Shown: positions 5,269-59,804 of the stretch, piece after piece
Position numbering within the stretch: position 1 is the stretch's first letter
Layout of the letters: the number at the start of each line of letters is the position of its first letter
Assembly: GCF_900115785.1 (NCBI RefSeq)
Contig: NZ_FOYS01000001.1
Location: 548,769 to 612,768, forward strand
DNA: 64,000 nt
Direction: 5' to 3'
Source: Halogeometricum limi
Lineage (GTDB): Archaea > Halobacteriota > Halobacteria > Halobacteriales > Haloferacaceae
Program-made: the position numbers and the translations under genes
The notes under the pieces: model-generated
What the model was told of the DNA's origin: nothing
Database searches by the model: none
The model's input: only the letters and a program-made list of their open reading frames with translations

Positions 5269-5340
5269 AACGCCGGGACGGGGATTTGAACCACGGTCAC
5301 TCTGCTCGCTCCACTCGCGACGCTCCCTGATTCAAATCCC
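5269..5340 (-). repeat. Displaced copy of tRNA-Ser 3' end with inverted T-arm
   Basis: Bases 5269-5292 match the 3' end of the real tRNA-Ser (5411-5434) at 23 of 24 positions, covering discriminator, acceptor strand and half the T-arm. The copy lies 119 bases downstream of the tRNA in its direction of transcription. Its T-arm half GGGATTTGAA (5281-5290) is repeated in inverted form as TTCAAATCCC (5331-5340), giving a perfect 10-bp stem around a 40-base CGCTC-rich core. The rest of 5085-5268 and 5341-5412 holds no gene that I can see. Confidence 0.85.
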
Positions 5341-5412
5341 TTCGGAGTCGTTTCGTCACTCACGAACCGAGCACACGCTACGCGGTGCTCGGTACGTAGT
5401 TCGCGACAGAAA

Positions 5413-42807: not shown

Positions 42808-43170
42808 GGGTTCGTATCTACCGATACGAGAATAAAGGTGCGCTATGACTTGGCATGACACGAATGGGGTGGAGGGGGCGCGGAGACGTTCTCGTCGGAG
42901 AGGCCTACGCAAGCCTTTCGCACACGCGTCACCCGAGCGAAGACAACTGCACGCCGTCATCGACTCGCGAGTGGCTTCAATCGTGCTTCGATAGAGAGAA
43001 CGAGCCCTTCGAATCGGACGGAGGATGTTCGTGTACATCCTGTCACGAGTATATTTACGTGACTCTTGTAGAATATCCTTCCAATTTTGAACGAATACAC
43101 GGCCAGAGTGGAACTACCCACGACCCCTGATACGAAGATGATGGCGTCGGACGCAGCCCACTGACAGTTC
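42808..43170. other. Gene-free region, partly A/T-rich
   Basis: Contains the promoter side of the CDGSH gene. A weak open frame from 42855 to 43130 encodes 91 residues, but its composition is unlike its neighbours and I do not count it as a gene. Bases 43045-43100 are markedly richer in A/T than the rest of the window. Around 42903-42935 is a segment whose translation (EAYASLSH) resembles that of 41095-41120 (QAYASLAH). Confidence 0.4.
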
Positions 43171-43291
43171 TCACTCGCTCACTGTGTTCGCTCGCTGGTT
43201 CAGAGTCCGGTCGTGTCGCACCTACAGAACCCGCCACGCTCGCTTCGCTCGGTGGTCGGGTTCAGAGAAGTGCCGCCTCCCGGATTTGAAC
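43171..43291 (-). repeat. 121-bp direct repeat, distal copy, next to tRNA-Phe
   Basis: Apparently identical over all 121 bases to 43437-43557. It begins with a TCACTCGCTCACTGTG block, carries CGCTCGCTTCGCTCGG-type palindromes, and ends in the tRNA-Phe acceptor plus half T-arm (GCCGCCTCCC then GGATTTGAAC). Between the two copies, 43292-43436 holds a 59-base palindromic segment, a near copy of the tRNA anticodon arm (43351-43378 versus 43559-43586, 26 of 28 bases) and a third acceptor/T-arm copy at 43415-43435. Confidence 0.9.
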
Positions 43292-43436
43292 TCCCGAAAG
43301 ACTCGCTGACGCTCGTCTTTCGACTTCCCGCTCGCTCCGCTCACGGGAACGGGGACGGCCCGATCTTCAGTCGAGTGCGACAGCTACTCGAATGGAAATC
43401 GTGTAGAAATCGGATGCCGCCTCCCGGATTTGAACC

Positions 43437-43557
43437 TCACTCGCTCACTGTGTTCGCTCGCTGGTTCAGAGTCCGGTCGTGTCGCACCTACAGAACCCGC
43501 CACGCTCGCTTCGCTCGGTGGTCGGGTTCAGAGAAGTGCCGCCTCCCGGATTTGAAC
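43437..43557 (-). repeat. 121-bp direct repeat, proximal copy, ending inside tRNA-Phe
   Basis: The partner of 43171-43291. Its last 21 bases are the genuine 3' end of tRNA-Phe (43537-43557), so the repeat unit extends from tRNA sequence into downstream DNA. Period between copies is 266 bases. Confidence 0.9.
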
Positions 43558-43610
43558 CGGGGACAGCTCGATCTTCAGTCGAGTGCTCTCCCAGTCTGAG
43601 CTAAGGCGGC
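43537..43610 (-). tRNA. tRNA-Phe (anticodon GAA)
   Basis: Reads UUC/UUU. Acceptor halves GCCGCCT and AGGCGGC pair; the D-arm is TAGCTCAGACTGGGAGAGC, the anticodon loop reads CTGAAGA flanked by paired CTCGA/TCGAG stems, and the T-arm is CCCCGG-TTCAAAT-CCGGG. Discriminator A; CCA not encoded. Downstream of it lie two further copies of its 3' end. Confidence 0.96.
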
Positions 43611-44137: not shown

Positions 44138-44213
44138 CGCCTCCTATTGGTCGCCAGATGTCGTCTATCTGCTGTTTTCGGTACGGAAACCTGATTGTCT
44201 GCGTCGTATTCGG

Positions 44214-44335
44214 TGGCTCGGGGGAGTCGAACCGGAGCAAGACGTGCTCACTCGCTCCGCTCGCTGCGCGCGACTTGCAGGGTTCGACTCGCCCTCACAG
44301 ATGTTTCTGGACTCACTTCGTTCGTCACAGAAACA
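44214..44335 (-). repeat. Displaced tRNA-Val 3' end and hairpins
   Basis: TGGCTCGGGGGAGTCGAACC (44214-44233) is a near copy of the tRNA-Val 3' end (44336-44357). Its GAGTCGAACC is mirrored by GGTTCGACTC (44281-44290), a perfect 10-bp inverted pair around a CGCTCCGCTCGC core. A second stem-loop, ATGTTTCTG (44301-44309) with CAGAAACAT (44328-44336), directly abuts the end of the real tRNA and could act in termination or processing. Confidence 0.85.
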
Positions 44336-50741: not shown

Positions 50742-51064
50742 GTCGCCGAGCGAACGCGTCACCGACGCTTCGCTCGTCGTATAGTTCCTCGCAGAAACGT
50801 CCTGACGGAGTCTCACACGAACGGAGTGAGTGTGAGGCACGTCGGACGTGTCCGACGGGAGATTTGAACTCGCTGAGACTCGCTCCGCTCGTCTCGTCTG
50901 CTCAAATCTCCGTGGCGTCCGTTTCGCGAGGAACAGACTTCTCGCTTCGCTCGTCGTGTAGTTCCTCGTAGAAACGTCCTGACGGAGATTTGAACTCCGG
51001 TCCCTGGCTCCGCAAGCCAAGAGGATAGTCCACTACCCTACCAGGACTCATCTATCGATACTGC
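50742..51064 (-). repeat. Duplicated tRNA-Arg block, copy 1
   Basis: 323 bases homologous to 51092-51429 and containing the complete tRNA-Arg gene. In tRNA sense, the tRNA is followed by an inverted T-arm copy (TCAAATCTCC, 50902-50911), a CGCTCCGCTCG core, a direct T-arm copy (GGAGATTTGA, 50858-50867) and a further acceptor fragment near 50799. The two 10-base arms pair perfectly. Confidence 0.92.
50975..51047 (-). tRNA. tRNA-Arg (anticodon GCG), copy 1
   Basis: Reads CGC/CGU. Acceptor halves GTCCTGG and TCAGGAC pair (one G-T wobble); D-arm TAGGGTAGTGGACTA; anticodon stem TTGGC/GCCAG with loop TTGCGGA; T-arm CCGGAG-TTCAAAT-CTCCG. Discriminator G. The 73-base gene appears identical to the copy at 51340-51412. 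Confidence 0.94.
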
Positions 51065-51091
51065 ACATCGACTTAAGACGGTTACGATGTA

Positions 51092-51429
51092 GTCGCCGAG
51101 CGAACGCGTCACCGACGCTTCGCTCGTCGTATAGTTCCTCGCAGAAACGTCCTGACGGAGTCTCACACGAACGGAGTGGGTGTGAGGCACGTCAGGTCGC
51201 GAACGAAAGTGAGCGTCCTGACGGAGATTTGAACTCGCTGAGACTCGCTCCGCTCGTCTCGTCTGCTCAAATCTCCGTGGCGTCCGTTTCGCGAGGAACA
51301 GACTTCTCGCTTCGCTCGTCGTGTAGTTCCTCGTAGAAACGTCCTGACGGAGATTTGAACTCCGGTCCCTGGCTCCGCAAGCCAAGAGGATAGTCCACTA
51401 CCCTACCAGGACTCATCTACCGATACTGC
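51092..51429 (-). repeat. Duplicated tRNA-Arg block, copy 2
   Basis: 338 bases; the main difference from copy 1 is a 15-base longer middle segment (AGGTCGCGAACGAAAGTGAGCG region near 51194-51215). It has the same order of tRNA, inverted T-arm (51267-51276), core and direct T-arm (51223-51232). Only 27 bases separate the two blocks. Confidence 0.92.
51340..51412 (-). tRNA. tRNA-Arg (anticodon GCG), copy 2
   Basis: Same sequence and folding as copy 1 at 50975-51047, with GTCCTGG/TCAGGAC acceptor and GCG anticodon. The two genes are 365 bases apart in the same orientation. Upstream sequences diverge beyond about 17 bases (AGTCGATGTG versus GGGGAGGGCA side), so their promoters may differ. Confidence 0.94.
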
Positions 51430-59406: not shown

Positions 59407-59407
59407 T

Positions 59408-59568
59408 AAAGAAACCCGCGAGCGACAGCGAGCGGTGTTTCGCGTCCGCGCTGGCGGTTCGAACCGGGGAGCGAAGTGAGCCGAGCGAACGGAGTGACCG
59501 GGGTTCGAATCCGTCAGGGCCCATAGATTTCCTGCCAACGTCAGTGAGCAGTGAAATCGCTCTCGACC
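59408..59568 (+). repeat. CAU-tRNA 3' array, unit 1
   Basis: Immediately after the tRNA comes a 161-base unit: a spacer rich in GAGCG/CGAGCG motifs (GCGAGCGACAGCGAGCGG, AGCGAAGTGAGCCGAGCG), the palindrome CGGTTCGAACCG (59455-59466), a copy of the tRNA's 3' end (GGTTCGAATCC through the acceptor, 59502-59524), then 44 further bases. It is repeated at 59644-59804, with a period of 236 bases. Confidence 0.9.
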
Positions 59569-59643
59569 TGACGGGAGAATCGTACCAGACGCGCACAGCG
59601 AAGCGAGCACGTCTGGTAGTGGTTCGAATCCGTCAGGGTCCAT

Positions 59644-59804
59644 GAAGAAACCCGCGAGCGACAGCGAGCGGTGTTTCGCGTCTGTGCTGGCGGGTCGAAC
59701 CGGGGAGCGAAGTGAGCCGAGCGAACGGAGTGACCGGGGTTCGAATCCGTCAGGGTCCATGGATTTCCTGTGAACGTCAGTGAACAGTGAAACCGCTCTC
59801 GACC
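59644..59804 (+). repeat. CAU-tRNA 3' array, unit 2
   Basis: A diverged copy of 59408-59568, with a handful of substitutions, again ending its core with a tRNA 3' end (59738-59760). A further 3'-end copy at 59621-59643 closes the 75-base segment between the units. In units after the first, the acceptor changes from GGGCCC to GGGTCC. No gene lies in 59805-59947 except the znu promoter region. Confidence 0.9.

Follow-up and report, generated by a model that had tools for sequence, protein, structure and literature searches.

Partial tRNAs are recognised as marks of integration (PMC9897764, PMC3119063), and the closest described systems fall into three groups. Archaeal tyrosine recombinases (treated in PMC8371274) that integrate at tRNA genes, of the SNJ2, pNOB8 and SSV types, duplicate the tRNA 3′ end and the tRNA stays functional, as is the case for the units described here. 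In contrast to these elements, the haloarchaeal arrays are gene-less and consist of no more than three units of 61–164 bp (median 104) with a 20-nt block copied from T54 and a common hairpin. Integron arrays and CALINs resemble them in their small tandem units, G|TT junction, terminal hairpin with an inverted core, and an order that varies between relatives, the terminal hairpin being scored on its inverted core and G|TT junction. The haloarchaeal arrays differ from integrons in having no cassette genes, a tRNA gene in the place of attI, and a tRNA-specific 20-nt core; haloarchaea are absent from the main text of the archaeal integron paper (PMC9668308). REP/BIME sequences (REPs in PMC12306157), RAYT-mobilised palindromes, and the haloarchaeal PATE/SMR repeats (PMC3119063) are likewise short, dispersed, intergenic hairpins without genes. 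PATEs as described make no target duplication (PMC3119063), whereas the units considered here are tied to tRNA 3′ ends, carry arms copied from the host tRNA, and duplicate its tail. We found no description of tRNA-anchored arrays of hairpin units in the open-access literature, and it seems that a structure found throughout a class behind essential genes has so far escaped notice.

The window, a 64,000-nt stretch of Halogeometricum limi DNA, carries such an array at a tRNA-Phe (GAA) gene on its minus strand (43537–43610; ARAGORN, Rfam). Since the gene is on the minus strand, the repeat copies lie downstream of its 3′ end, and the order in the tRNA sense is tRNA-Phe, U2, exact tail copy, U3, exact tail copy, second U2, the gene's own tail being T54–N73 (43537–43556). 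U2 (102 nt; 43435–43536, minus strand as for all parts of the array) has a pyrimidine-rich start, a trailer hairpin, a degenerate inverted T-arm CCGGACTCTGAACC and the tip AGCGAGCGAACACAGTGAGCGAGTGAG, and ends at G|T54. The first and second tail copies (43415–43434 and 43271–43290) each match tRNA-Phe T54–N73 at 20/20 positions. Between them, U3 (124 nt; 43291–43414) comprises a flank, a tRNA-Phe remnant running from the anticodon arm to G53 (43350–43378), and a double hairpin CCGTGAGCGGAGCGAGCGGGAAGTCGAAAGACGAGCGTCAGCGAGTCTTTCGGGA (about 43292–43350) inserted at G53|T54 with GTTC (G53–C56) on each side. The distal second U2 (43170–43270) has no tail after it.

A first-pass annotation of the locus had reported two identical non-coding copies of 121 bases. 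Base-by-base alignment extends the identity by one base to 122 nt, U2 with its tail (43170–43291 and 43436–43557, 266 nt from start to start), a length and identity that rule out chance as the origin of the duplication. The anticodon-arm match between the copies, put earlier at 26 of 28, is 27/29 (43350–43378 against tRNA-Phe 43558–43586), and the acceptor/T-arm copy noted at 43271 is one of three 22-mers, at 43271, 43415 and, within the gene, 43537, the one at 43415 not having been listed separately before. A second tRNA-Phe 3′ half with its T-arm interrupted by a hairpin segment is indeed present, broken at the T-stem/T-loop border G53|T54, but the segment consists of two adjacent hairpins and not of the single 59-base palindrome that had been described. 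Neither is the repeat a simple local duplication: it represents two copies of one exchangeable unit in the order U2–U3–U2, with recent copying and gene conversion kept as alternatives for their identity. An assembly artefact is unlikely as its source because a sequencing read exceeds the repeat in length and the A-B-A pattern recurs in assemblies of other species.

The tRNA-Phe locus exemplifies an arrangement found behind many tRNA genes across the class. Among the 165 units collected, a unit is a copy of its own tRNA's T54–N73 (20 nt; perfect in 71) followed by a trailer hairpin, the reverse complement of the T-arm and a tip of GA/GNA type, and its end coincides with G53|T54 of the next tail. 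The common form at the unit end is rc(T-arm)–tip–T-arm, for which U3 substitutes its double hairpin. The suggestion that new material joins at the break in the T-arm is borne out: 141 of 165 units have their junction at G53|T54, and in a further 16 a T precedes T54 in place of the G, which a one-base shift would account for. In 162/165 units N73 is followed by a pyrimidine, none of the 165 starts with CCA, and no genes are recognisable inside units, which are too short for them. Each inverted arm follows the host tRNA: compared with their own tRNAs, the arms give 505 paired cells, whereas 2000 permutations average 388 and never exceed 424, as illustrated by His (GAGAATTGA with TTCAATTCTC) and Ser(CGA) (GAGATTTGAA with TTCAAATCTC).

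In its folded form the tip consensus TCAGGGAGCGAACGNAGTGAGCGACCGTGG consists of alternating Watson–Crick pairs and tandem G.A steps with a closing GNA loop, and the unit hairpins have folding z values of −1.7 to −6.0. With the motif chosen by hand, tip loops are GNA in 75 cases, GNYA in 25 and never GNRA, and tips in trailers show a strand bias of 150:26. Selection for RNA structure in pre-tRNA trailers, acting in 3′ processing, as an exonuclease block, or by masking of the second tail, would fit the own-arm complementarity, the strong RNA folding, the fixed strand orientation and the class-wide spread. We nevertheless regard this explanation as very unlikely, given that most tRNAs of the same genome have no unit, that congeners gain or lose units at the same tRNA, and that the tetraloops are GNYA and not the GNRA typical of RNA. 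Rfam likewise returns no family at the array except tRNA, apart from a weak, sub-threshold antisense match of tRNA genes to Plastid-ycf2 (RF04354; 43536–43610, plus strand) that probably reflects chance or a tRNA-derived artefact in the plastid family. GNA and GNNA loops with a C-G closing pair are unusually stable in DNA, and this stability favours, rather than establishes, action at the DNA level.

To determine the extent of the pattern, 60 relatives were searched with the tRNA-Phe region and all 48 tRNA hits of the H. limi genome were scanned. Copies of the own tail lie downstream of 15/46 tRNAs in this genome, 19/47 and 12/48 in the full sets of two congeners (9/30 in a smaller set from a same-genus genome), and 7/31 in a genome of another family; tail copies are found at a quarter to two fifths of tRNA genes per haloarchaeal genome examined. 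Upstream, own tails occur at only 2/46 tRNAs, from tandem tRNAs, and tails of other tRNAs recur downstream in 1/1754 mismatched comparisons. These two controls exclude chance recurrence of the tails. No tail copies were present at 23 tRNA loci of non-halobacterial members of the phylum (0/23). When 84,980 species genomes were scanned with a pattern for the inverted arm plus tip, 91 matches were obtained in 89 stretches, mostly from Halobacteria, and 69 of the 91 lie on the same strand 27–298 nt downstream of a tRNA of nearly all isotypes. Bacterial matches have no tail and look like chance.

Comparison of relatives reveals that the units are shuffled. Behind tRNA-Ser(CGA), 15 Haloferax genomes carry arrays of the form X, Y, Y-X, X-X or X-Y-X, or none at all, built throughout from two bodies that are recombined with several tips, and there are pairs of genomes that stand one unit and one tail apart (G126 and G124, for example). 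The U2–U3–U2 order of the window can therefore be read as one such sandwich. In Halogeometricum, A-B-A or A-B-A-B orders are found at Ser(TGA) and Lys in G003, at Met and Phe in the genome of the window, and at Tyr in G002. A constant anatomy and junction are combined in these arrays with tRNA-specific arms, and units are gained, lost and permuted between relatives. We propose that in each array the tRNA anchors a series of small, exchangeable units that enter at the T-arm and are shuffled by tail exchange, a reading to which we assign a probability of about 0.55, the agent being either an integron-like tyrosine recombinase or recombination between tails. Given an existing array, every permutation seen could be the product of general recombination between tails.

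The double hairpin of U3 bears on whether the pattern might arise with no dedicated system. Together with the tRNA remnant it also adjoins tRNA-Phe in G011 and G033, and a related double hairpin stands behind tRNA-Tyr in G002 and G012. The same annotation had named the palindromic segment without a tRNA flank in a relative as evidence against its reading, and this is in part what we find: double hairpins stand without tRNA flanks in G008, G027, G059 and G010, with one hairpin only in G051 (L382, L384, L388, L393, L394). The double hairpin therefore did not arise from tRNA sequence but belongs to a dispersed kind of hairpin that made its way into the T-loop. In G030, behind tRNA-Gly (L385:1400-1600), the GNA loop of a separate hairpin holds a 57-nt double hairpin that has GGAGT on both sides, whereas the GNA loop is uninterrupted in L405. 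At L382, CCGGA flanks a related double hairpin on both sides. From these few examples, hairpin loops, including the T-loop, look like entry points.

In a rival account with no dedicated system, dispersed haloarchaeal hairpins insert or grow at hairpin loops, T-loops among them, and tandem copies are then made and rearranged by replication slippage, by template switching and by homologous exchange between tails. The flankless double hairpins and the insertion into a GNA loop with a 5-bp direct repeat speak for this explanation, as do identical tandem trailers after tail copies at Lys, Leu-TAA and Ser-TGA and inverted-arm fusions in Haloferax G117 that look like deletion products. We hold it to be possible but on balance unlikely, because, whatever the isotype or genus, units are invariably bounded by N73 on the far side and by G53|T54 on the near side, a conserved tip throughout the class is unexpected from slippage, and the body ..GAGCACCGCGTAGCGTGTGCTCG.. 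stands behind Asp, Ser(GGA), Ser(TGA) and Thr(CGT), each time with the host tRNA's own tail.

An element integrated at tRNA-Pro(TGG) allows the units to be compared with a true insertion. It spans 31.6 kb (G000:C8:371226-402886; L280, L281), and its gene for a 342-aa tyrosine recombinase ends 0.2 kb from the displaced tRNA-Pro tails and 31.6 kb from tRNA-Pro. The core common to this one provirus and tRNA-Pro is 13 nt, compared with 20 nt in the units. A complete unit lies beyond the provirus core, and in G003 it directly follows tRNA-Pro, uninterrupted, in a shortened form. Integration of the provirus therefore separated the tRNA from a unit that was already there, and the 13-nt core together with the splitting off of that unit indicates that units are not scars of the tRNA-Pro provirus integrase. 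Were the tail copies attR remnants of other viruses or plasmids once integrated in tRNA 3′ ends and since lost, the tRNA 3′ end should recur as a direct repeat, as it does; duplication of the tail is a hallmark of tRNA integration (Reiter and Williams, cited in PMC9897764), and an element with a tyrosine recombinase gene is present at tRNA-Pro in the H. limi genome. Decayed, unrelated elements would, however, hardly leave a class-wide common tip and permuted arrays, nor repeats only 61–164 bp apart with no integrase or other genes between them, and two unit tip patterns, taken as a sign of an attP with the unit structure, gave 0 hits among 2.9 million viral contigs. We judge this origin quite unlikely.

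How an exchangeable unit might enter and move can be outlined from the junctions. Because each unit starts with a copy of the host T54–N73, the upstream tRNA is left intact after unit addition. Entry would occur at a T-arm, either the gene's own or one in a tail copy, with the hairpin extruded as single-stranded DNA, and would most likely be catalysed in trans by a tyrosine recombinase following an integron-like logic in which the tRNA acts as attI and the T-arm hairpin as attC. Once two tails are present, units may be deleted, duplicated or fused by crossing-over, for which both the 20-bp tails and the inverted arms provide matching sequence. The 122-bp repeat of the window would then reflect recent placement of a second U2 beyond U3, or an identity kept by gene conversion. 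A retro-type origin from mature tRNA, with its 3′ end as primer-binding site, was rejected because no unit starts with CCA and the copy spans T-loop positions that are usually modified.

A stronger form of this outline, in which Halobacteria have their own integron-like system whose recombinase acts on folded single-stranded T-arm hairpins to insert, excise and reorder gene-less cassettes while restoring the tRNA 3′ end, is rather doubtful and is put forward tentatively. No recombinase linked to the units was found. No integron integrase is present among nine tyrosine recombinases tested from the genome (best TIGR02249 score 28 bits, cut-off 265), and the two Y1_Tnp genes of the genome are both on contig C3, away from the tRNA-Phe locus. 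With neither IntI nor cassette genes found, the arrays are not classed as an integron. The arrays document in their sequence that insertion has recurred at a single, defined tRNA junction; they offer natural recombination events that are easily typed, and they may explain why genomes change so actively at haloarchaeal tRNA loci. Should a recombinase be identified, they would constitute a cassette system parallel to integrons with tRNA genes as its platform.

Further arrays are found in the window. The unit behind tRNA-Val(TAC) (44212–44335, minus) contains a hairpin A, an inverted T-arm and a class-iii tip AGTCGCGCGCAG...GCACGTCT, together with a tail copy that has decayed (44212–44231). Behind tRNA-Met(CAT), an array P-Q-P′ (59407–59759, plus) has tail copies at 59504, 59623 and 59740, followed by a Q′ trailer, and the unit behind tRNA-Ser(GGA) (5271–5412, minus) has a tail copy at 5271–5290 (19/20). 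Two tandem tRNA-Arg(GCG) genes are followed by near-identical trailers with T-arm hairpins (50860–51339, minus), and the unit behind the tRNA-Arg(GCG) at 51340–51412 has a terminal exact tail copy. As the trailers are near-identical, hairpins included (50860–51412), either gene and unit were duplicated together or gene conversion has acted. Tails on contig C6 (L044) that seemed to be orphans were discarded as such, for they adjoin an apparent intron-containing tRNA-Trp, read by eye and without an ARAGORN call. Two tandem units of ~147 bp lie behind an apparent intron-containing tRNA-Trp at G000:C6:257140-257600 (L282). Elsewhere in the H. limi genome, outer arms CTTTTTGGTCnAGnTTTTTnC ... GTAAAAAG/GCAAAAAGCTC enclose several perfect hairpins (L041:1500-1720 and L033:1400-1500), and these stretches look like a separate dispersed element or a structured RNA.
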